A stretch of DNA of 64,000 bases from a virus, in the IMG/VR virus record IMGVR_UViG_3300021356_000015, positions 1-64,000 of that record; one strand, given 5' to 3'. Positions within the stretch are counted from its first letter, which is position 1. Each line of letters begins with the position of its first letter. Below are positions 10,237-61,814 of this stretch, piece by piece. The notes under the pieces are model-generated. The model worked only from the letters and a program-made list of their open reading frames with translations, was not told the origin of the DNA and searched no databases. Position numbers and translations under genes: made by a program.

Positions 10237-10294
10237 GGTACAATATACCATATTTATTTCAATCCTGAAAATATTTTAACACTTTTAACATTTG

Positions 10295-10365
10295 AGGTTC
10301 GGGATGGACTTGCACCACCGTAAAAGGCTTTGCGAGCCTTCACCTAACTACTCGGACACCGAACC
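10295..10365 (-). tRNA. tRNA-Cys (GCA)
   Basis: The acceptor GGTTCGG/CCGAACC is perfect, the anticodon arm is AAGGC-TCGCAAA-GCCTT with anticodon GCA, and position 73 is U as in bacterial tRNA-Cys. The D-stem is weak and the T-loop is TGCAAGT (G at 55 instead of U). Its 5' 18 bases overlap the 3' end of the methylglyoxal synthase gene. No CCA is encoded. Confidence 0.7.
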
Positions 10366-10752
10366 GTTTTCGATCTTAGATCTATGCTTATACCACTTAA
10401 CTAAGTGAGAAGCTGTGCTATAATTTGTAGCTAATGGACAGTTATGCACATCACATACTCTCATCAACATAGAGATATCAACATCATGAGCATGTTTACC
10501 AAGAGGATCTCTAAAGAAAATAACCAAATCGATTTCAGATCTGGTGACCATAGCTGCAATTTCAGCGTCTCCTCCCATTGGACCACTAGCAACTCTTTCT
10601 ACCTTCTCAATACCGGCGTGAGCGACGTGATTACCTGTTGTTCCAGTTGCAACTATAGAGACACCTTCTGCATTAAAGAAATTAAGTCTCTTTGAAACGA
10701 AGGCGACCATATCTGCCTTCTTATTATCATGTGCTATAAGTGCTATCTTCAT
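10348..10752 (-). CDS. mgsA: Methylglyoxal synthase
   Basis: 134 aa, close to the bacterial enzyme in length. It matches MgsA along its length: IALIAHDNKK, the phosphate-binding ATGTTGN, SGPMGGDAEIAAMV with the catalytic Asp, IFFRDPL, and HDVDISMLMRVC followed by LATNYSTA. The enzyme converts dihydroxyacetone phosphate to methylglyoxal and releases phosphate, bypassing lower glycolysis. In a phage it would be an auxiliary metabolic gene, possibly freeing phosphate or diverting carbon. The stop lies inside the tRNA-Cys gene. A tRNA-Val lies just upstream. Confidence 0.85.
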   Translation of the reverse strand: MKIALIAHDNKKADMVAFVSKRLNFFNAEGVSIVATGTTGNHVAHAGIEKVERVASGPMGGDAEIAAMVTRSEIDLVIFFRDPLGKHAHDVDISMLMRVCDVHNCPLATNYSTASHLVKWYKHRSKIENGSVSE

Positions 10753-10765
10753 AGAGGTAGTATTG

Positions 10766-10840
10766 TGGGCGATGAGGGATTCGAACCCCCGACCTCCTCG
10801 GTGTAAACGAGATGCTCTGAACCAACTGAGCTAATCGCCC
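10766..10840 (-). tRNA. tRNA-Val (UAC)
   Basis: A full cloverleaf: acceptor GGGCGAT/ATCGCCC, anticodon loop TTTACAC giving UAC, and T-arm with TTCGAAT. It sits between the IMPDH-family gene and mgsA. No CCA is encoded. Confidence 0.93.
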
Positions 10841-10849
10841 TCCTAAGCC

Positions 10850-11887
10850 TTAGCTTATAAGATGCGGCTTTGCCTCTGCAAGACCCGCATTAGTTACTGC
10901 GTTGTACTCAACCTTGGACCAGTACTCGCTAGTAGTAGATGCTCCAGTGTATGAGAATGCTGACTTAATACCATCGATAAGACCAGCAAGGATAAACTTA
11001 ACTCCACCCTTGAAAGGTACAGTAGTAGATTCTCCTTCAACGTTACGTTGCTTTTGATTGTGAGTAATCTTAGTCTCAAGAGATGCAGATCCTCTGTAAC
11101 GCTTGTAAAGACCACGTGCATTTTCTAAGATAGCACCTGGTGATTCCTTAGTTCCTGAAATTAAGGATCCAACCATTACGCAATCTGCTCCAACTGCGAG
11201 TGCCTTAGCAATATCACCAGAGGACTTAATACCTCCATCTGCCATGATAGGCACATCTCTAAAGTTACCTTCGACGCAGTCAAGGATTGAGGTCACGTTT
11301 GGAACACCGAATCCAGTCTGAACTCGAGTTGTGCATAGAGAACCACCTCCGATACCAACGCGAAGGCCATCAGCTCCCCAATTAACTAAGTCTCTTGCTG
11401 CCTCTTCGGTTGCAACGTTGCCTGCGATTACATCGACAGTTGTGTGTAGGTTTTCCTTAAGCGTTGCGATTGCAGTGCGTACGTTAGCGTGGTGACCGTG
11501 CGCAACGTCGATTAAGATGATTTGGCATCCAGCTGCGCAAAGCGCTTGTGCGCGCTCAAGATAATCATCGACTGCCCCAACTGCAGCCATGATCGGAAGA
11601 TCCCAGCAAGATTCAGGTGAGTTTTGTTGAAAGTGCTTGACTTTTGCGACTTCAGCTGCTTGATCTTCGATGCTCATAAAACGGTGAATACATCCAACAC
11701 CTCCCATCTCCATCATTGCGATAGCCATCTCGCTTTCACAGACAGTGTCCATGCAAGATGCTACGATAGGAACTCGAATCTTATAATTACGAGAAACGTT
11801 GGTTGTTAGATCAATATCTTGGCGTGTGACAATATCAGAGAACTTGGGAATCAACTGAATATCATCGTATGTTAGTGCTTGCTTCAT
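10850..11887 (-). CDS. IMP dehydrogenase / GMP reductase family protein
   Basis: 345 aa TIM-barrel without CBS domains, the length of GMP reductase and short IMPDH forms. The catalytic loop is GIGGGSLCTTR with its Cys. MADGGIKSSGDIAKALAVGA and MVGSLISGTKESPG form the phosphate site, and YTGAS lies near the end. The TTRVQTGFGVPN stretch is nearer to GMP reductase, so direction (IMP to XMP or GMP to IMP) cannot be settled by eye. With the guanylate kinase at 22867 it suggests the phage tunes the guanine nucleotide pool. A late-like motif precedes it and an upstream terminator separates it from the tRNAs. Confidence 0.8.
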   Translation of the reverse strand: MKQALTYDDIQLIPKFSDIVTRQDIDLTTNVSRNYKIRVPIVASCMDTVCESEMAIAMMEMGGVGCIHRFMSIEDQAAEVAKVKHFQQNSPESCWDLPIMAAVGAVDDYLERAQALCAAGCQIILIDVAHGHHANVRTAIATLKENLHTTVDVIAGNVATEEAARDLVNWGADGLRVGIGGGSLCTTRVQTGFGVPNVTSILDCVEGNFRDVPIMADGGIKSSGDIAKALAVGADCVMVGSLISGTKESPGAILENARGLYKRYRGSASLETKITHNQKQRNVEGESTTVPFKGGVKFILAGLIDGIKSAFSYTGASTTSEYWSKVEYNAVTNAGLAEAKPHLIS

Positions 11888-11905
11888 GCTTTATTTAATT
11901 TGAAA

Positions 11906-11916
11906 TTTATATATGG
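11906..11916 (-). promoter_or_regulatory. Late-promoter-like motif before the IMPDH-family gene
   Basis: The minus strand reads CCATATATAAA, ~19 bases before the start. GAAACAAACTA lies just upstream, also present before the motif at 12965, suggesting a second conserved box. Confidence 0.5.
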
Positions 11917-11935
11917 TTGATTTAGTTTGTTTCAT

Positions 11936-11962
11936 AAAAAAGGAGCCAATTTCTTGACTCCT
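11936..11962 (-). terminator. Intrinsic terminator after the tRNA cluster
   Basis: On the minus strand AGGAGTCAA pairs with TTGGCTCCT (one G-U) around a 4-base loop, followed by six T. It closes the tRNA transcript before the IMPDH-family promoter. Confidence 0.75.
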
Positions 11963-11989
11963 ATAAGCTGATCGCTTGCATGGCATGTG

Positions 11990-12060
11990 TTCCCCGACCA
12001 AGACTCGAACTCAGACTAGCTGGACCAAAACCAGATGTGCTACCATTACACCATCGGGGA
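11990..12060 (-). tRNA. tRNA-Gln (UUG)
   Basis: The acceptor TCCCCGA/TCGGGGA is perfect, the anticodon loop TTTTGGT gives UUG, and the T-loop is TTCGAGT. 71 bases, no encoded CCA. Confidence 0.93.
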
Positions 12061-12074
12061 ATTCAATGTATCTA

Positions 12075-12314
12075 TCACTGAACGAATGTCACTTCGTTGA
12101 TCTGAACAAAAACATCTTCAATCTCCTCGTCTGTCGTCTGATCGAATACGACTGATTCCCATTTCATTCCTCGTGGGGAGACAGGAGCATTGAATCGAAT
12201 GTAGAATTCATCAAACTCAACAAAGCCTTCCATAGGGTGACCATATTGATTAGTGAATTCGGCCGTGGTCTTGTGACCATCTTTAAGTTGATAATTAACT
12301 TTAGTGACGTACAT
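12075..12314 (-). CDS. Hypothetical protein, 79 aa
   Basis: A small, mostly beta protein lying between tRNA-His and tRNA-Gln (VEFDEFYIRFNAPVSPRGMK in the middle). No known family is recognised. The leader contains GTAAACAAAACAAA directly before the ATG, an A-rich leader like those of several genes here. It is expressed within the tRNA transcript. Confidence 0.6.
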   Translation of the reverse strand: MYVTKVNYQLKDGHKTTAEFTNQYGHPMEGFVEFDEFYIRFNAPVSPRGMKWESVVFDQTTDEEIEDVFVQINEVTFVQ

Positions 12315-12365
12315 TTTGTTTTGTTTACGATACTTATACTTAATGATACTTATTTGTTTCTCTTT

Positions 12366-12441
12366 GGGTGGCTAATCGGTTTCGAACCGACGACCTCCGG
12401 AACCACAATCCGGCGCTCTAACCAGCTGAGCTATAGCCACC
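12366..12441 (-). tRNA. tRNA-His (GUG), without encoded G-1
   Basis: The acceptor GGTGGCT/AGCCACC and anticodon loop TTGTGGT give GUG, with a TTCGAAA T-loop. The discriminator is C73 as expected, but the base before position 1 is U, not the G-1 that bacterial tRNA-His genes usually encode. Confidence 0.9.
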
Positions 12442-12442
12442 A

Positions 12443-12628
12443 TTAACCAAGAATATACCAAGGCGGAATTTGACTCTTACGCTTTGGTAGTCTCTTGAAC
12501 TTTCTTACGTGAGGATATTTAATACCTTTGACTTCAATGTCAACTGTACGATTGCTGTTCTTTTTGATAATGACGCCTTCTTCCAAAGCGCCAAATACGT
12601 AGAACTCTATTTTATCTCCTACCTTCAT
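12443..12628 (-). CDS. Hypothetical small basic protein, 61 aa
   Basis: A short beta-rich, Lys/Arg-rich protein (MKVGDKIEFYVFGALEEGVI) resembling a small SH3-like barrel. The family is not recognised. It lies within the tRNA cluster, ending one base before tRNA-His and starting 14 bases after tRNA-Tyr. A nucleic-acid-binding role is possible from charge alone. Confidence 0.55.
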   Translation of the reverse strand: MKVGDKIEFYVFGALEEGVIIKKNSNRTVDIEVKGIKYPHVRKFKRLPKRKSQIPPWYILG

Positions 12629-12642
12629 CGTATTAAATTTAG

Positions 12643-12724
12643 TGGGGGTAGATGGACTCGAACCACCGATGTCTTACGACGGCTGATTTACAGTCAGCTG
12701 CAATAGCCACTATGCGATACCCCC
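12643..12724 (-). tRNA. tRNA-Tyr (GUA)
   Basis: The acceptor GGGGGTA/TACCCCC is perfect, anticodon loop CTGTAAA gives GUA, and the long variable arm is typical of class II tRNA-Tyr. 82 bases, no CCA. Confidence 0.93.
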
Positions 12725-12801
12725 GGATCCGCAGCTTAGTTTTGGGTCGTTCTCAAACTAAGCCACTTGACAGACAGCGCGACCAGTACTTCTGCCCATT
12801 T

Positions 12802-12878
12802 TGGCGTCCCCTCTAGGGCTTGAACCTAGGACCCTCTGATTAACAGTCAGATGCTCTAACCAACTGAGCTAAGGAGAC
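12802..12878 (-). tRNA. tRNA-Asn (GUU), CCA encoded
   Basis: The acceptor is GTCTCCT/AGGGGAC with one G-U, and anticodon loop CTGTTAA gives GUU. The 3' end reads G then CCA, the only tRNA in this window with genomic CCA. Confidence 0.92.
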
Positions 12879-12884
12879 GTTTTG

Positions 12885-12958
12885 AGCCGCTAGAGGGATT
12901 CGAACCCCCGACCCGCTGATTACAAATCAGCTGCTCTGGCCAACTGAGCTATAGCGGC
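12885..12958 (-). tRNA. tRNA-Thr (UGU)
   Basis: The acceptor GCCGCTA/TAGCGGC is perfect, and anticodon loop TTTGTAA gives UGU. A TATATATAAA motif ends about 7 bases before its 5' end. Confidence 0.93.
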
Positions 12959-12964
12959 ATGGTC

Positions 12965-12975
12965 TTTATATATAC
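12965..12975 (-). promoter_or_regulatory. Late-promoter-like motif inside the tRNA cluster
   Basis: The minus strand reads GTATATATAAA, preceded by GAAACAAACTAGATC, immediately upstream of tRNA-Thr. It could give the downstream tRNAs a second promoter. Confidence 0.45.
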
Positions 12976-12998
12976 ACGATCTAGTTTGTTTCGATGCC

Positions 12999-13054
12999 GG
13001 GGCCCGAAAGCGGTGCGTAATGCTTCCGGACCCCTGCGTTCGCCTCACACGCAG
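12999..13054 (-). ncRNA. GC-rich structured RNA between tRNA-Lys and tRNA-Thr
   Basis: Two adjacent hairpins. CTGCGT/ACGCAG (13034-13054) abuts the 3' end of tRNA-Lys. A strong 13-bp stem, GGGGTCCGGAAGC with GCTTTCGGGCCCC (12999-13034, G-U pairs allowed), follows. It is far richer in GC than its surroundings and is not a tRNA cloverleaf. It has no T run, so it is not a standard terminator. It may be a processing signal or a small RNA. Confidence 0.45.
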
Positions 13055-13128
13055 TAGCCCCTCTGGGACTCGAACCCAGGACCCTCTCATTAAAAGTGAG
13101 ATGCTCTAACCAACTGAGCTAAGAGACC
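13055..13128 (-). tRNA. tRNA-Lys (UUU)
   Basis: The acceptor GGTCTCT/AGGGGCT contains G-U pairs, including G1-U72, and anticodon loop CTTTTAA gives UUU. The T-loop is TTCGAGT. Confidence 0.92.
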
Positions 13129-13178
13129 ATGATCGAGATAAGCTGCACCTGTCGGCTCAGATCAGTGGCATACGTGTC

Positions 13179-13268
13179 TTACCTATCTCTACCTTGATTG
13201 TTATGACTCCACAAGGTATCGGAGCTGCCTATCATATAACAAACTTTAGGAATTACCTTAATAGACAT
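13179..13268 (-). CDS. Possible 29-aa protein between tRNA-Ile and tRNA-Lys
   Basis: The 217-base gap 13129-13345 holds one short minus-strand frame beginning MSIKVIPKVCYMIGSSDTLW, with GGGAGG about 13 bases before the ATG. It looks protein-like but is very short, and the spacer could instead be an untranslated or processed RNA. The function is unknown. Confidence 0.25.
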   Translation of the reverse strand: MSIKVIPKVCYMIGSSDTLWSHNNQGRDR

Positions 13269-13345
13269 AGCAATTCTTGCAACCTCCCTTATATTGTCGC
13301 CTTAAGATCTATATGAGGTATCAACCTTAGGCCTTTAAATATTAG

Positions 13346-13419
13346 TAGGGACGACGGGATTTGAACCCATGACCTTGACTGTATAAGAGTCCTGCTCTAA
13401 CCAACTGAGCTACGTCCCC
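13346..13419 (-). tRNA. tRNA-Ile (UAU)
   Basis: The acceptor is GGGGACG/CGTCCCT with G1-U72, and anticodon loop CTTATAC gives UAU, which reads AUA. AUA is usually a rare codon in hosts but common in AT-rich phages. The first tRNA of the cluster in transcription order. Confidence 0.9.
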
Positions 13420-24985: not shown

Positions 24986-25007
24986 CTATAAATTGTGTTA
25001 AATTATG

Positions 25008-25092
25008 CGGAGAGGGAGGGATTCGAACCCCCGGTACCTTGCGGTACGCCGGTTTTCAAGACCGGTGCAATCGACCACTCTGCCACCTCTCC
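25008..25092 (-). tRNA. tRNA-Ser (UGA)
   Basis: The acceptor GGAGAGG/CCTCTCC is perfect, anticodon loop CTTGAAA gives UGA, and a long variable arm and G73 are typical of tRNA-Ser. No CCA. Confidence 0.94.
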
Positions 25093-25104
25093 GTAATGTA
25101 TATA

Positions 25105-25347
25105 TTACTCGCCTTCGCCTACCACATAGACAGTTTTAGAGCTAACTAAACCTATCATGTTTTCCTTCTCAATTGCAGTATTTATTCTCTTTGCTGCTTC
25201 CTTAGCATTTTTAAGAGACGTAAATCGACCAGCGTGTTCTTCTTTTACTAGTCTAATGCCCAAAACATAACGCTTTTCTACTAACGTATAAACCTTTTGA
25301 CCATTTTCAAACGTATACTCCTTTACTTCTACTTTGTGCGAATTCAT
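25105..25347 (-). CDS. Hypothetical protein, 80 aa
   Basis: A small basic protein (RFTSLKNAKEAAKRINTAIE) lying between tRNA-Arg and tRNA-Ser in one transcript. The family is not recognised. Starts 24 bases after tRNA-Arg. Confidence 0.55.
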   Translation of the reverse strand: MNSHKVEVKEYTFENGQKVYTLVEKRYVLGIRLVKEEHAGRFTSLKNAKEAAKRINTAIEKENMIGLVSSKTVYVVGEGE

Positions 25348-25370
25348 TGTAGTTAAGTGATAATAATTAG

Positions 25371-25444
<74 letters not shown>

Positions 25445-25459
25445 ATTTTGTAAGGTTTG

Positions 25460-25539
25460 TACGGGCGGAGAGACTCGAACTCTCACTCCTAGGAACTAGT
25501 GCCTAAAACTAGCGCGTCTACCAATTCCGCCACGCCCGC
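25460..25539 (-). tRNA. tRNA-Leu (UAG)
   Basis: The acceptor is GCGGGCG/CGCCCGT with G1-U72, the anticodon loop TTTAGGC gives UAG, and the variable arm is long. First tRNA of the second cluster in transcription order. Confidence 0.92.
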
Positions 25540-25602: not shown

Positions 25603-28600
25603 TTAAGACAACTTAGATTGAGCCGCTGGTTCCAAGTCTGTAATAGTAATCTTAGCTTGACCAGATACCAATAGATCGACGAGCTCTTGCATTGCAGCTG
25701 CACCGTCTCCAGATCCAGAAGAAGAACCTCCACTGCCAGAAGTAAGGCCAAGTTTGTTAGAGAAGCCATCAACTGCTTTAGCCATAGCTTGACCAACAGT
25801 TTTACTACCTTCAGCTTGTGCATTTACTGTACCTTCAAAATCAGCTATCATTGCTGCCAATTCTTGAATAGCCTCGGTTAATTTTTCACCAAGCTCTTCC
25901 ATTGCGTTCTTTCTGCCATTTTGGTATAGATATGCAAGCGCTTTAAACATGTCTGTCGTGGCATTAATAGCTTCAACATCCATTGTATTACTAGAGTTAG
26001 AGATATCGGCATATGATTTGGCTATCTTTTCTAGTGCAGTAGCCTGAGAGTTAAATGAAGATCTAGCTAACTGACGAGCCATCTTATGTGCCCATTCAAT
26101 ACCATCTATATTAACTTTGCCCATCTTATCCATTGCTGAAGCAATTTGTGTCATAGGCTTGGACATAGCTACTATAGCTTCACTACTTGCGGCCATCACT
26201 TCAAACATTCTAACAAATGCATCAGATCTCATTAACAACATAGAAGCTGATATGCTAACTATCGCAGGTGCAATGCCCAGTAACATAGCATTGCCCTGAT
26301 TAGTTAATTCAGACGCTGCTATAGCATTAAAGACCTTAGCGATTTCTTGTAATATTTCAGCGGGTAAAGCCGACATAGTAACCAACGCTGCTGCAGCCAT
26401 TTTCATGCCTAATCCCATTTCCATAGCTTTAACTGACATACGGTGCATTGAAATAGATATTGCATCAATAGGATCTACTAAAACTCTCCAATCTACTTCA
26501 TTGAATAGTTTTATAACTGAATCGATATACTCTTTCTTTAAGGAATTTAAGGCTGCGACCATTCTTTCCATTCCAGCAGCTACCTTAGTAACTCCCATTC
26601 CAGCTAAATTAGCGTTAACCGCAAGAATAGTCATAGAGCTAGCAACTGATGCAACTGGAGTAAAGATTGAACTCCAAGAAACATTAGCAAATAAAGCTTC
26701 TAGTCTTTTGGGTGCATTGGGATCTAAATTGCTAAGAGCTGAAACCATATCTCTTATAGGAGGTGCCATCTCTTGAACAGCTTTTACGTTAGCTTGCTTT
26801 GGGGTTAGTTGCATCAATGAGAAGAACTTGTTAAGAACTTCCATATTTTGACCCCCTTGTAAGAATGAGAATGCATCTCCTAATATTCTAATAGGCTTAG
26901 CAACTTTTTGAAGTTGAGGAGCCATCCTAACTATATCTTCTAAAATATCTAAAGGACCTTTTGACTTTTCTCCGCCAAAAAACTCTGCAACTCCATCAAA
27001 GAAAGCTTTACCTACATTTGCTACCGAAGCAAATAGTCCTCCAGCCGCTACACCTGCAGTTGCACCCGCTAAAGCTAGTAGAGAAACTGAAATTGCTATG
27101 ATGCCACCTGCCAACGGGAGTAAATTCTCCACACCTATCTCATTCTTAAGTCTAGCTAAAATATCAACTATGCCATTCACGGGAGCTAACATAGCTTCAG
27201 TAAGCATCTTAGCAACTCCTGATATATCGGGCATTTTACTAAAGATCCAAGCTACAACCCAAATACCAGCTGCGATAACTATCATACCAACCACGCCAAG
27301 AAGTATAGCTGCAGCTCCTATGCCCGACATGGCAATAGCTCCTAATATCAAAACAGGTATACTAAATAAAACTATGCCCAATGCAACACCCATTGACCAA
27401 CCAATAGGCAACTCTGTAAAATTACTAGGAACTGCGCTTAAAATCCAAGCTATGGCCAAAATACCTATTGAAATAACTATGGCTCCTAATACACCTTGAA
27501 TCATGGTTCCCATACTAACAGCCTTTGTTAAAATACCAATTAAGGAAATACTAACACCAAATACTATTAAAGCTAAACCTGTTTTTAAGGTCCATGTGGC
27601 ATCAGGGGGAGCTCCATATCCTCCTCCTAATCTCTCATATACATCAAATATAAATGCAGTGCCGACTATACCTAAAGCCACGAAAATAGAAGCAGCAGCT
27701 GCCTTTGCTAAGTCTTTTAAGGAAGTACCCCTAATTCCTCTTACCAAACCAACAAATGGTAAAGAAAATACTAATAGGGCTAAACCAGCTTGTAAAGACC
27801 ATCTCCAATCTGGAACTTTCATGTCCTTTGGAAGAAATTGGAATATTAAAGCTGTTAATACTATTGCACCGGCAATAAAGACCATAGCTCCAGCTGCCAT
27901 CGCAACTTCTTTAGGCCCAGCTCCCTTAACTGAATCTATAATTAATTTAAAGCTATATGCTGCGCCAACCAAAGCTAATCCGATTAAGAAAACAGTGGCA
28001 TAAACCCATCCATCTTTTATAGGAATTACGCCTTGTAATAACACGGATGCTACTACTATTCCAAGCGCAATAAGAGGAATTGCTGCTGATGCCATAAGAA
28101 CATCTTTAAAGGATTTACCTTCTATCTTTTCTAAAATTTGAGCATATGCCCATGCCGCCCCGGTTAAAGCTATACCAACTAAAAATGCTGTTACTAATTT
28201 CTCACCAGCAACTGGCATTACAAGTTGGAAAATCCAAGAAGCTGCTGCAATACCAGCAGCAAGACCAACTATAGAAATTAAAGTTGCGCCCATTAAAGTC
28301 CATATTCCGCTAAAGTTAGTCGCTGAAAGAGACCCTAATTCACCGGCATCAACTGAATCTGTTGATTTCATTTTACCCAAGGCATCAGCTATTTTAACGA
28401 ACGCAGGAGCCATAACTAATAAAGCTGCAGCCATAAGAACGCCAGTTAGTAGTTGCATAGGAGACACGGGCATAATTAATTGCATTATCCAAGAAGATAT
28501 AGTTAGCGCCGCTACCATACCCAACATAGAAAGTAGAGTTGCTCCAGCTGTGGCAAATATAGCCGAAGGATCAGTTTTAGAAGCTGTAATTCCTTCATAC

Positions 28601-29076
28601 GATACACTTGCTTCTCCGCTTAATTTACCAAGTGTTTCTACCATCTTAACAAACCCAGGAGTTAATAGCGCTATAGTTGCACCAACTACCACCGCAGTTC
28701 CCAATTGTGCAAGAGATACTTTAGCTATTAAGCTAAATAAGCTTGCAGAAGCTACAAGTGCTGCAGATAAACTAACCATCATAAAGGCAGCTAATCCTGT
28801 ATCTTTTATATCAAGTGGTTTAAATCTAGCGGCTTGATCTAGGTCGTCTGTTTGTTTACCTCCTCCACTATCGTTCTTAACCTGATCCTTCATTATACTC
28901 TTAATATCTCCAAGAATAGTGGTTTGCTTTTTAAGCTCATCTACTGTTTCTTTTTGAAGAGACTTAACGTCAACAGTTAACATTTCTATACTAGTCATTT
29001 GCTGAGTTCTCTCCTCAGCCACTGCTTCTAGTCTGTAAATAGGGCTTAAGATAGCCTGAAACTGCTTTTCTGTCAT
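25603..29076 (-). CDS. Probable tape measure / tail-lumen protein with many hydrophobic segments
   Basis: 1157 aa, Ala/Ile/Met-rich. The first ~60 residues are helical (VDELKKQTTILGDIKSIMK). Residues ~85-640 contain more than a dozen hydrophobic segments of membrane-span length (e.g. GLAAFMMVSLSAALVASASL), and the C-terminal part is helical and amphipathic, ending in a Gly/Ser-rich linker and short tail. It is the longest protein of the late tail cluster and directly follows the gp26/gp51 genes, the position of a tape measure after tail assembly chaperones. So many span-like segments is unusual but known for tape measures that insert in the host membrane. T4 gp29 is much shorter. Confidence 0.55.
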   Translation of the reverse strand: MTEKQFQAILSPIYRLEAVAEERTQQMTSIEMLTVDVKSLQKETVDELKKQTTILGDIKSIMKDQVKNDSGGGKQTDDLDQAARFKPLDIKDTGLAAFMMVSLSAALVASASLFSLIAKVSLAQLGTAVVVGATIALLTPGFVKMVETLGKLSGEASVSYEGITASKTDPSAIFATAGATLLSMLGMVAALTISSWIMQLIMPVSPMQLLTGVLMAAALLVMAPAFVKIADALGKMKSTDSVDAGELGSLSATNFSGIWTLMGATLISIVGLAAGIAAASWIFQLVMPVAGEKLVTAFLVGIALTGAAWAYAQILEKIEGKSFKDVLMASAAIPLIALGIVVASVLLQGVIPIKDGWVYATVFLIGLALVGAAYSFKLIIDSVKGAGPKEVAMAAGAMVFIAGAIVLTALIFQFLPKDMKVPDWRWSLQAGLALLVFSLPFVGLVRGIRGTSLKDLAKAAAASIFVALGIVGTAFIFDVYERLGGGYGAPPDATWTLKTGLALIVFGVSISLIGILTKAVSMGTMIQGVLGAIVISIGILAIAWILSAVPSNFTELPIGWSMGVALGIVLFSIPVLILGAIAMSGIGAAAILLGVVGMIVIAAGIWVVAWIFSKMPDISGVAKMLTEAMLAPVNGIVDILARLKNEIGVENLLPLAGGIIAISVSLLALAGATAGVAAGGLFASVANVGKAFFDGVAEFFGGEKSKGPLDILEDIVRMAPQLQKVAKPIRILGDAFSFLQGGQNMEVLNKFFSLMQLTPKQANVKAVQEMAPPIRDMVSALSNLDPNAPKRLEALFANVSWSSIFTPVASVASSMTILAVNANLAGMGVTKVAAGMERMVAALNSLKKEYIDSVIKLFNEVDWRVLVDPIDAISISMHRMSVKAMEMGLGMKMAAAALVTMSALPAEILQEIAKVFNAIAASELTNQGNAMLLGIAPAIVSISASMLLMRSDAFVRMFEVMAASSEAIVAMSKPMTQIASAMDKMGKVNIDGIEWAHKMARQLARSSFNSQATALEKIAKSYADISNSSNTMDVEAINATTDMFKALAYLYQNGRKNAMEELGEKLTEAIQELAAMIADFEGTVNAQAEGSKTVGQAMAKAVDGFSNKLGLTSGSGGSSSGSGDGAAAMQELVDLLVSGQAKITITDLEPAAQSKLS

Positions 29077-29124: not shown

Positions 29125-29156
29125 AAAAAGAAAGGGGCTTTAAGCCCCTTTCTCTT
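29125..29156 (-). terminator. Intrinsic terminator after gp51-like
   Basis: The stem AGAAAGGGGCTT / AAGCCCCTTTCT is perfect and is followed by TTTT on the minus strand. Confidence 0.85.
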
Positions 29157-29451
29157 ATAGTTTAGGAACCGATAGATTTGGTACCTTCATATTTGGAATC
29201 TTAGGCATGCTTGTATTATATGCCTCATTTTGTTTTTCATTTTGCTTATTCTCTTCCTTAAGATGTTCAACTAAGTCTTTGACTAAATAATGGAATTCAT
29301 AATACTCCAAGTTGTCAAGTTCTGACGGTTGAATGTGTAACTTAAGATAAAGATAGAACTTAGTTTTAAAGAAGTTCTCCAGAGAAATCTTGAATAATGA
29401 AAATAGATTTGATGCCGTCGCGAAAGTTAATAGGTACAGAGGCCTCCTCAT
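29155..29451 (-). CDS. 51: gp51-like baseplate hub/tail assembly chaperone, probably made by +1 frameshift from gp26
   Basis: The frame opens with an ATG at 29451 inside the gp26-like gene, but the part upstream of ~29372 (RRPLYLLTFATASNLF) looks like an out-of-frame shadow. The recognisable part starts at KTKFYLYLKLHIQPSELDNL followed by YYEFHYLVKDLVEHLKEENK, the small helical segment of gp51-type chaperones. No credible start codon precedes it. The gp26-like frame ends CUU-UAA with GGAG five bases before that CUU, so a +1 slip would join the two. It sits directly upstream of the tape measure gene, like other frameshifted tail chaperones. Confidence 0.6.
   Translation of the reverse strand: MRRPLYLLTFATASNLFSLFKISLENFFKTKFYLYLKLHIQPSELDNLEYYEFHYLVKDLVEHLKEENKQNEKQNEAYNTSMPKIPNMKVPNLSVPKL
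29366..29380 (-). promoter_or_regulatory. Candidate +1 programmed frameshift site (gp26-gp51)
   Basis: The minus strand reads GGAGAACTTCTTTAA: a Shine-Dalgarno-like GGAG, then CTT immediately followed by the TAA stop. This is the architecture of the prfB (RF2) +1 site, where CUU precedes UGA. Slipping to UUU reads on into the gp51 frame with AAA. Confidence 0.5.
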
Positions 29452-30334
29452 CCTCTACGACAACCTTCATTTCTGGTTGGATGCCGATTTTCATTTTTTC
29501 AGCCAATCTATATAATAGAGTGTACTTTTTATTGTCCCAACCATTCATATCTACCTCGATATCAAATATCTTCTTTTGATTAAAGTTTCTCCAATCTGTA
29601 GAAATAAATGGAATAATTTGAATAAGAGATTGATCGATATTAATTCCTTTCTCTTGTCTTTCTTTAATATACTTTGTAACTTCTTGCATAACGCCAATTG
29701 AAGGTGGCTTCATGAAAATTTCACCGTATGATCTGGTTTGAATTACAAATCCTCTGGCAGCCTCATCGTAATACTTTTCAATATCTCCTGGAATCTCAAA
29801 GTATCTAAAGTAATCTCTCTTAATTTCAATATCATGAGAATTACCGCTTGGTGCCGTGAAATTAACCTTTAATGCATTTTCAGGTTCTGGAAAAGTTAAG
29901 TCTCTAACCGATAAGATAATAAAAAATCTATCTTCTTCACAAATGTCTTTAAAAGAAACTCTTTTACTAGCGCATGACACGTTTGTACAAGACTGAACAA
30001 TAGAATTCAATTTTTCATCTATATCAAGTAAATTATTCTCATCCATTGTTGAGAAGTGTCTAATTTCTGCAACCTTAGCAGATCTAATTTTTATTTCCAT
30101 ATCCTTTGGGTAAAATCTGCCTCTTGATGGTAAGTCTTCCATGCTTAGATTATACCATCCCAAGTGAATATCAGAAGGCGCTGCTTTTTCAGGTCCATAG
30201 TTGTCCATATTTACAGAACCTAAACCTTGATTGGTTATAGTTTCTTCAATAACATCAGCCTCTTCGACTGTAGTGGCCTGTGCTTCTTTTTCGGCTAGTA
30301 TTCTTTCTAGCTCTTTTTCGTTATTATCGCTCAT
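29366..30334 (-). CDS. 26: gp26-like baseplate hub protein (T4 base plate family)
   Basis: 322 aa. After a ~50-residue acidic N-terminus it carries the T4 baseplate hub pattern: MEDLPSRGRFYPKDMEIKIR, an initial hydrophilic strand region, a TNVSCAS segment, DICEEDRFFIILSVRDLTF, and a C-terminal helical part. The T4 gp26/gp51 family acts in hub assembly. Its stop at 29366 is part of a candidate +1 frameshift site (see gp51-like). Confidence 0.65.
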   Translation of the reverse strand: MSDNNEKELERILAEKEAQATTVEEADVIEETITNQGLGSVNMDNYGPEKAAPSDIHLGWYNLSMEDLPSRGRFYPKDMEIKIRSAKVAEIRHFSTMDENNLLDIDEKLNSIVQSCTNVSCASKRVSFKDICEEDRFFIILSVRDLTFPEPENALKVNFTAPSGNSHDIEIKRDYFRYFEIPGDIEKYYDEAARGFVIQTRSYGEIFMKPPSIGVMQEVTKYIKERQEKGINIDQSLIQIIPFISTDWRNFNQKKIFDIEVDMNGWDNKKYTLLYRLAEKMKIGIQPEMKVVVEDEEASVPINFRDGIKSIFIIQDFSGELL

Positions 30335-30648: not shown

Positions 30649-31209
30649 TTAGTTTAGCTCTTCGCTAAAGACGTCAGCTCTCCAAGTTACTTCTAGAGTT
30701 TGAGCATCTGCTGAGCCATAATCTAGAGTACCTGTGAATCCAAGGCCTGATGTCATAAAGCAATCTTCAAGAGTTACCTTTCTGTAAATATCACCCTTTC
30801 TGTCGAATTGAACGATAATTATAGTACCTGTGTAATCTCTCTTTAGACCCATTTCACCAGTATCTGGGTTGTATTGAGCTCTGTACCATTGTCTTAGCGT
30901 TTTGTAAACGTAAGCTTGGTTAGAATCATTTAAATTTAGTGAGAAGTTAACCGTAACGTCAAGCGCAGTTCCATCTGGCATACCAGCATATGATCTGGTA
31001 GCAAACTTATACTTTTGCTCAATTGCTGCGACTTCTCTATGAATACCTTCTAGTCCTGAGATTGAATTAACATGCTGTAGTAACATATCAGTTCCATCGA
31101 CGACATCTGGTGCAAGTATAGTAACCTCAAATAGGTTAGCCTGTACTGGCTCAAATTGTCTGCCTTTCTTACTAGTTTGGTCTTCTCTATAGTGTGGTAA
31201 ACCTGCCAT
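30649..31209 (-). CDS. 19: Tail tube protein gp19
   Basis: 186 aa, close to T4 gp19 (163 aa). It begins with the short leader MAGLPHYRED and has the tube fold pattern with VTVNFSLNLNDSNQ and TLRQWYRAQYN, then GTIIIVQFDRKGDIYRKVTL and a final WRADVF strand. It polymerises into the rigid inner tail tube within the sheath. It directly follows the sheath gene, as in T4, with its own promoter motif and terminator, which suits a highly expressed product. Confidence 0.88.
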   Translation of the reverse strand: MAGLPHYREDQTSKKGRQFEPVQANLFEVTILAPDVVDGTDMLLQHVNSISGLEGIHREVAAIEQKYKFATRSYAGMPDGTALDVTVNFSLNLNDSNQAYVYKTLRQWYRAQYNPDTGEMGLKRDYTGTIIIVQFDRKGDIYRKVTLEDCFMTSGLGFTGTLDYGSADAQTLEVTWRADVFSEELN

Positions 31210-60198: not shown

Positions 60199-61515
60199 TT
60201 AAATACTGTGTAAATTGCTGTTCGTTATATCGTCGGTCTCGGTCAATCTCATGTAGTTGTAATTAATATTCAACTTACACTTGACACCTTTGCCTTCTCC
60301 ATCTCTAATCTTCAAGATCTTCAACCAATATTCCTCGCTCGCTCTCATCAAATCATCTTGAATAATACCTAACATAACATCTGCTGTATGAGATAGACCT
60401 GCTGATTCTGCAATGTCTGTCATAGTGATATCAGATGCGTTATAGCCAGATCGAGTAATCTGAGTAGCTGTAACTATAAGCCAGTTATTTCTGATGCCCA
60501 TAGCTCTCAAATCCTCTGCAATCTGCTTGATTTTCATATATGTGTTTTCAGTATTTTGGTTTCTGTAGTTAGCCAAAATATTGATGTAGTCAATAACCAC
60601 TGCGCCCAACTTGATTTGTCTCTCCTCCTCAATTTGATTTAGATAAGCTTCAATGTCAAGAACAGTAGCTTGAGAAGTTGGAAATTGCTTAACGAATAGT
60701 TGACCAGGCGGAGTAAAGCCATCGCCCACAGTTTCTAGCCTTCTCTTAATGTATTCAGAGTTCTTGGCCTTCTCAGCATAGTCATTAATAGGTACACTAA
60801 GTAGGTTAGAACCGATACGCTTGACAAACTTGTGAGCTGCCATCTCAGCAGTAATCACTGCTGTATTTGTACCCATCTTGACAAAGTTAGCTGCGTCATT
60901 GGCCAAGTAAATCGACTTACCAATGTTTTGCTCACCTGCATAAACGATTAGATTTCCACCCTTATCATAGCCTCCTCCCAAAACTCTATCCAAGAAGTTG
61001 TAGCCTGTAGAAACTTTCTCTTCTTCTCTTTGTGAGTGTGATTCTACATCAAAGAAGTCAAGACCAAGGTCAGAGTTAAAGTTAAGGTTGTTGCGATCGT
61101 TGATGAGTCCCTTAACTTTGGTAATAATCGACTCGGCGTTCTCTGGAGTTACCTTAGTTGTCTTGATAAACTCAATAGTGTCAATAAGAGATGTGTCAAA
61201 GTTTCTCCACTTGATCCATGATTCTGCCGTACCAGTTAGCCATTCTTCATCATATTGATCGAGGTCTACATCGAATATCATGTTTAAGATATCCTCACTT
61301 ACCTTTTCTCTAGCTTTATCTGACCTTTGAATAAGTAGCTTAAGTTGGTCCTTCGAAGGAGTCTCGTTAAACTTAGCATAAAATGCATTGGCCAAGTAAC
61401 TTAACGTGTCAATTTCATCAGACGTATAGAATCCCGTCTTAATAGACTGCAAGTACTTTGGCTTTTCAAGTGAAAGCCTAAAGAATGTCTTTTCAAAGTC
61501 TTGACCGAACTGCAT
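60199..61515 (-). CDS. 41: Replicative DNA helicase gp41 (DnaB-like)
   Basis: 438 aa, T4 gp41 has 475. The RecA-type core has Walker A YAGEQNIGKSIYLAND near residue 195, Walker B VVIDYINIL near 310, and ATQITRSGYNASDIT with the Arg finger region near 355. The N-terminal ~150 residues are a helical hub. It unwinds DNA ahead of gp43 on the lagging strand. One-base overlap with the upstream 99-aa gene. Confidence 0.9.
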   Translation of the reverse strand: MQFGQDFEKTFFRLSLEKPKYLQSIKTGFYTSDEIDTLSYLANAFYAKFNETPSKDQLKLLIQRSDKAREKVSEDILNMIFDVDLDQYDEEWLTGTAESWIKWRNFDTSLIDTIEFIKTTKVTPENAESIITKVKGLINDRNNLNFNSDLGLDFFDVESHSQREEEKVSTGYNFLDRVLGGGYDKGGNLIVYAGEQNIGKSIYLANDAANFVKMGTNTAVITAEMAAHKFVKRIGSNLLSVPINDYAEKAKNSEYIKRRLETVGDGFTPPGQLFVKQFPTSQATVLDIEAYLNQIEEERQIKLGAVVIDYINILANYRNQNTENTYMKIKQIAEDLRAMGIRNNWLIVTATQITRSGYNASDITMTDIAESAGLSHTADVMLGIIQDDLMRASEEYWLKILKIRDGEGKGVKCKLNINYNYMRLTETDDITNSNLHSI

Positions 61516-61814
61516 TATTCAAATGGGTTTATTAGTATTTTATATGACTCCTTACCTTCTTCTTGATTGACTTGTTCGATCAATCCTTCATTTAAGAGAT
61601 CCTCAATAGAAGCTTTGAGATGCTCTCTTTCTGTATCGGGAAAATGATACTTGTTTACTGCGTGAAGAGTAAACTTACCTTTATATCTGTCTGGGTGCCT
61701 TTGACATAAAGTCACCTCGTGATGCAGAACATCTAGTCCAGTTGGATAACCGTCAAGCGTTGATTCTATACCGAGGATATACTTTATAGGCAGCTTATCC
61801 TCATTAATTCTCAT
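61515..61814 (-). CDS. Winged-helix-like small protein, 99 aa
   Basis: A helix-helix-wing pattern appears in HLKASIEDLLNEGLIEQVNQ followed by SYKILINPFE. Family not recognised. It lies between uvsX (11-base overlap) and gp41. It may regulate or load the helicase, since T4 has gp59 for that task, but sequence similarity to gp59 is not visible. Confidence 0.5.
   Translation of the reverse strand: MRINEDKLPIKYILGIESTLDGYPTGLDVLHHEVTLCQRHPDRYKGKFTLHAVNKYHFPDTEREHLKASIEDLLNEGLIEQVNQEEGKESYKILINPFE

Follow-up and report, generated by a model that had tools for sequence, protein, structure and literature searches.

The window, a stretch of viral DNA of 64 000 nucleotides, carries on its minus strand a T4 gp26-like gene (29366..30334) that probably yields two proteins. 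These would be a short form of 322 aa and a form of 392 aa reached by a +1 shift of the ribosome at UUU_CGC, with help from a Shine–Dalgarno (SD)-like AGGAGG. A probability of about 0.78 is assigned to this reading, which draws on the comparison of sequences amongst relatives. The unshifted ORF (phrog_36717) ends, as the original prediction had it, GGA GAA CTT CTT TAA, and the +1 frame at this end is open to 29155. The domain encoded in the +1 frame matches phrog_634, 'baseplate hub assembly catalyst' (E=1.2e-4), in agreement with the gp51-like character already claimed for it. Upstream of the gene is a tail tube gene (30649..31209, minus strand; phrog_4542 and phrog_45 tail tube), and directly downstream is a probable tail tape-measure gene (25603..29076, minus strand; 1157 aa), which was assigned by position and length and is without a family match. 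This is a G/GT-type location, and the earlier placement of the domain just upstream of the tape measure holds. The +1 fusion of gp26 to gp51, the core of the original prediction, is well supported by comparative evidence. The shift appears to take place earlier than was then proposed, and for this reason the predicted fused product, with the shift at UUU_CGC, is 392 aa in length.

In the mechanism proposed here, the majority of ribosomes would end at the TAA and release the short gp26-like form. Some would be delayed by the rare CGC codon while tRNAPhe occupies the P site on UUU (UUU_CGC, 29420..29425, minus strand), and would move +1 to UUC. In the +1 frame they would then translate an extension of 88 codons plus the stop at 29155 (29155..29421, minus strand), generating the 392-aa form with its helical, gp51-like C-terminal domain. 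The AGGAGG (GAG GAG G; 29443..29448, minus strand), 17 nt 5' of the slip codon, probably helps; the whole element, AGGAGG – 17 nt – UUU_CGC, occupies 29448-29420 on the minus strand. One gene would in this way provide two N-terminally identical proteins, putative hub or tail assembly chaperones, and T4 gp26 and gp51 would represent the short and long forms made from separate genes.

A total of 293 sequences, in which 186 different junctions are represented, came from scans of IMG/VR and from phage records; the tree comprised 161 representatives and its main clade 149. The downstream domain is in the +1 frame throughout all 186 distinct junctions. CTT TAA is present at 160/186, preceded by a codon that varies synonymously (CTT, TTA, CTA), and CTT TAA R is invariant in 135/149 main-clade representatives. 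In the other 14/149, all from one clade, the sequence is TTA TAA, which needs several changes on the tree, and the +1 domain is unchanged. Conservation of the CUU-stop in relatives, which had been expected, is thus seen at most junctions and fails in these 14. No matches were obtained from scans that started from a single MA9V or Lak protein, or from the widest gp26 alignment. In the huge phage L042 (LR756501), an extended linker places the gp51 motif further 3' of the gp26 stop, and no +1-frame start codon was found ahead of it.

Comparison of these relatives clearly indicates protein-level selection on the +1 frame, starting approximately 12 nt downstream of the proposed slip site. Right after the gp26 stop, pN/pS in the +1 frame is 0.09 (53 independent pairs), even in genes without any ATG there, and at -32..-2 (signed positions are relative to the gp26 stop) pN is 0.008 and pS 0.069. 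In the gp26 frame, the synonymous rate falls from a mean of approximately 0.41 upstream to 0.10, 0.06 and 0.03 over the last 60 nt of gp26. Position-3 changes in this frame drop at codon -57, and the changes in the last 60 nt are at gp26 codon position 1, which is position 3 of the +1 frame. This pattern points to a dual-coding stretch, the C-terminal 18 codons of gp26 under the +1 extension (29369..29421, minus strand). A modest synonymous dip is already found 5' of the slip site, with pS passing from 0.29 to 0.17 between -120 and -60, and counts against the proposed mechanism. A conserved +1 peptide, S-x-[LV]-[FYCS]-S-L-F-[KQ]-I-S-L-x-N-F-F-K, is read 5' of CTT TAA, contrary to the earlier view that the +1 domain begins at that point. 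Upstream, +1 stops come no closer than -62, where 22 genes have one, and constraint is evident by about -44; entry into the +1 frame must therefore occur between these points. No start codon is conserved for the +1 frame, and the arrangement is that of G/GT, with overlapping frames of which the second lacks a conserved start.

Between -62 and about -44, good re-pairing is possible at one codon only, the UUU at -57, after which comes a C; this site is 18 sense codons 5' of CUU_UAA. In the 149 representatives the site reads TTT_CCC (48), TTT_CGT (37), TTT_CGC (28), TTT_CCA (10), TTT_CCT (4), TTT_CAA (2) or TTC_CCA (20). UUU_C, with a slow A-site codon, is accordingly found in 129/149 at the start of the selected +1 frame. 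Codon choice following UUU is unusual: Arg at the site is encoded by CGT or CGC in 65/65 cases, compared with 12.6% elsewhere in these genes (AGA, 79%), and CCC represents 48/82 Pro codons at the site (59%), compared with 2.8% elsewhere. In-frame TTT_CGY or TTT_CCC is present at this codon in 113 genes and at no other place in the 149 genes. Among the 18,874 codons of the window there is a single TTT_CGC; the sole other in-frame TTT_CCC among the 53 window ORFs is at 61515-61814. TTT_C is also present at the matching place in the PAU, pT24, Lak, MaF61 and LR756501/502 phages. Downstream of the site, no signal of stable RNA structure was detected (mean z -0.24). The window encodes 12 tRNA genes (10294-13419 and 25007-25539), including tRNA-Arg(UCU), tRNA-Leu(UAG) and tRNA-Lys(UUU). 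None of the 12 is for Phe or for CGN/CCC codons, so the slow A-site codons would not be relieved by the phage. The host is presumed, from the hosts of named relatives, to be a member of the Bacteroidota.

The AGGAGG encodes Glu-Glu as GAG GAG, though GAA is the usual Glu codon. It is found in 53/65, 33/48 and 10/10 genes of the three main UUU_C classes (96/123 for the UUU_CGY, CCC and CCA rows), against a background of 0.35% of sequence windows, and in 0/20 of the class that lost UUU. That both are missing from the same genes is an argument for their acting in concert. Comparison of the relatives strongly indicates selection on AGGAGG, on UUU_C and on the rare A-site codon, and all three disappear together. 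AGGAGG is too far from any +1 start to be of use there and, where the +1 stop at -62 lies between, cannot serve an internal start. SD spacers are 3 nt in prfB and approximately 10 nt in dnaX; the 17 nt found here is longer than both. In Flavobacterium johnsoniae, prfB uses AGGAGGUAUCUUUGAC, and the SD is rarely used at starts (PMC8710568).

A conserved slippery site under selection, as in G/GT, is therefore present with the exception of the TTC_CCA class (20/149; L111, L122, L223-L292). In this class the re-pairing P-site codon and AGGAGG are gone and the +1 domain is kept. All 20 have a GTG at -50 in the +1 frame, and the class may have switched to independent initiation at this codon. The aligned TTT_C and AGGAGG are also both absent from MA9V and PTm1. 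These groups, like the TTC_CCA class, are without the slip site and must use another route, possibly a GTG start. Where UUU_C would align, the Chryseobacterium phages MA9V-2 (L037) and MA9V-1 (L045) have GGG_A (GGG ATT) in its stead, which could be a +1 slip site. The hosts of the MA9V phages are Weeksellaceae, which are reported to possess an altered anti-SD and to lack the prfB frameshift.

The original prediction placed the slip at the end of the gp26 frame (CTT TAA, 29366..29371, minus strand) in an RF2-like design, in which tRNALeu would slip from CUU to UUU with UAA waiting in the A site. This site re-pairs well, and the invariance of CTT TAA R in most of the main clade would suit it, as would a last Leu codon that is fixed while the penultimate Leu codon varies. 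In addition, CUU_UGA is present in prfB of the host class (PMC8710568). However, the +1 frame is selected 40 nt 5' of this site, and the conserved peptide encoded there would never be translated by such a shift; CUU_UAA is therefore rejected as the site, and an RF2-like shift there appears very improbable. The TTA_TAA representatives keep the +1 domain unchanged. The GGAG proposed as the SD is present in 106/160 and is otherwise TCTG, ACTG, GGCG, CAAG etc., so that the conserved SD 3 nt 5' of a CUU-stop, characteristic of RF2-type sites, is lacking. Conservation of CTT TAA is explained by coding in both frames: gp26 keeps its Leu and the +1 frame its Phe, which TTA would change to Tyr.

It is also unlikely, though less so, that a small gp51 protein is started independently inside gp26 from a codon that differs by lineage (ATG at -83, GTG at -53, GTG at -50 or TTG at -29). 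Some +1-frame ATG, GTG or TTG is present in most genes, the GTG at -50 is universal in the TTC_CCA class, and some independent product could come from the GTG at -53, present in 37 genes, or from the ATG that the window has at -83. The ATG of the window, at 29451, is in frame, which weakens the earlier claim that the gp51 domain has no credible start; the claim stands in so far as this ATG is kept only in near relatives. Against such starts, no ATG, GTG or TTG precedes the conserved peptide in 35/149 genes, including genes with the +1 stop at -62. AGGAGG would be unusable in the genes with TAA at -62. Furthermore, T4 gp51 is a single chain, and in cyanophage and KVP40 relatives a canonical slippery heptamer for a -1 shift is found instead. 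As for a frameshift elsewhere in the region, CUU_UUC at codon -36, homologous to the cyanophage -1 heptamer with which it aligns, has in its favour that CTT/ATT TTC is present in most UUU_CGY genes. This codon is CTA, CTC, CTG or TTA in many UUU_CCC genes, however, and the +1 frame is already under constraint at its codons -44 and -38, as well as -50 in the CGY class. A -2 slip would be without re-pairing at UUU, and little credence is given to either event. A -2 slip at CUU, which requires UUC upstream, was rejected as it is broken in 13 TTA/CTA CTT TAA genes. Restart downstream of the TAA was rejected since selection acts on +1..+34 in genes that have no ATG in that region.

PF12322 is the family of both T4 gp26, which matches it from end to end, and T4 gp51, which is longer by a C-terminal extension of 48 aa. 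The PF12322 cut-off of 24.5 bits is exceeded by two proteins related to that of the window (L033, 29.2 bits; PAU gp93, 33.9 bits), and a profile search gave no PF12322 match for the window protein itself. The model of its short form (pLDDT 74) matches predicted T4-like baseplate hub assembly proteins, and a PDB fold search gave no matches. The model is folded up to about residue 301 and the slip would be at residue 304, which suggests that the two tails are alternative endings. The extension, modelled separately, is predicted to form two long helices with a short one between, and shares phrog_634 profile positions with T4 gp51. Comparison by hhalign of gp26, the fusion or the extension with T4 gp26/gp51 was not significant (extension, E about 0.01). 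Homology with T4 therefore rests on the Pfam/PHROG family hits of relatives and on the fold matches. The idea that T4 gp26 and gp51 are the parts of a split fusion was rejected, as they are paralogs on opposite strands.

In cyanophage Syn9, phrog_150 positions 4-233 are encoded in one ORF, which ends TCT TTT TTC GGG TAG, and positions 231-277 in the -1 frame. In 77/77 distinct cyanophage-type sequences (L306:1079-1801, L307-L386), T_TTT_TTC is found shortly before the stop and the -1 frame encodes the long-form domain; nearly all have a GAGGG or GAAGG element approximately 10 nt 5' of the heptamer. The heptamer U_UUU_UUC is also present in KVP40, Stenotrophomonas YB07, Desulfovibrio 7757, Citrobacter Ci1 and S-PM2, again with the gp51 domain in the -1 frame. 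Where -1-type records are annotated, the two parts are listed as separate genes; gp51 genes are probably mis-annotated in many T4-like genomes. It seems reasonably likely from these comparisons that the short and long pair is general in the T4 superfamily. In most lineages it would be produced by a -1 shift at U_UUU_UUC; T4-like phages that infect Bacteroidota would use a +1 shift at UUU_CGY/CCC, stimulated by an SD-like element, and T4 itself two diverged genes (26 and 51). This three-form G/GT reading of the T4 superfamily was not found stated in the literature searched, which mostly excluded subscription journals, so priority is uncertain.

Frameshifting between the lambda tail assembly chaperones gpG and gpGT (Xu, Hendrix and Duda) has been reviewed, and G-T frameshifting is reported to be widely conserved in long-tailed phages, T4 excepted (Atkins, 2016; PMC5009743). 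The gene described here resembles lambda G/GT in that a short chaperone and a longer, frameshifted form would be made from one gene directly 5' of the tape measure. It differs in belonging to the T4 superfamily, in encoding a T4 gp26/gp51-type protein (PF12322) and in the proposed +1 shift at UUU_C. A T4 review describes gp51 as essential and of unknown function (PMC3004832). If the reading is correct, its role would be that of a GT-type chaperone, and T4 would no longer be an exception to the tail-chaperone frameshift rule; this may answer why T4 lacks the tail-chaperone frameshift of most tailed phages. T4 gp26 and gp51 share with the present gene the PF12322 family and the relation of a short protein to one with an extra C-terminal domain, but are two genes on opposite strands, whereas here a single frameshifted gene is proposed. 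In cyanophages, KVP40 and other T4-like phages, a short ORF is again accompanied by a long-form domain in another frame, but this is the -1 frame behind U_UUU_UUC with GAGGG/GAAGG, rather than +1. The prfB (RF2) site CUU_UGA has in common with the present site the +1 direction and an SD-like element upstream. The slip here would be on UUU rather than CUU, with a sense codon rather than a stop in the A site and the SD at 17 nt rather than 3. Slippage of +1 on UUU_C is established for influenza PA-X, and a wider class of UUU_C stimulators has been predicted (Firth, 2012; PMC3498833). Influenza A PA-X (UCC_UUU_CGU) and the plant amalgaviruses (UUU_CGN) share with the phage site UUU_C followed by a CGN codon and the +1 direction (PMC3498833, PMC5052127). 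In the phages, the ribosome is bacterial, an SD-like AGGAGG lies upstream, CCC is also used in the A site and there is no conserved UCC upstream. This may be a natural bacterial use of a PA-X-type UUU_C +1 site, in hosts whose ribosomes mostly hide the anti-SD.
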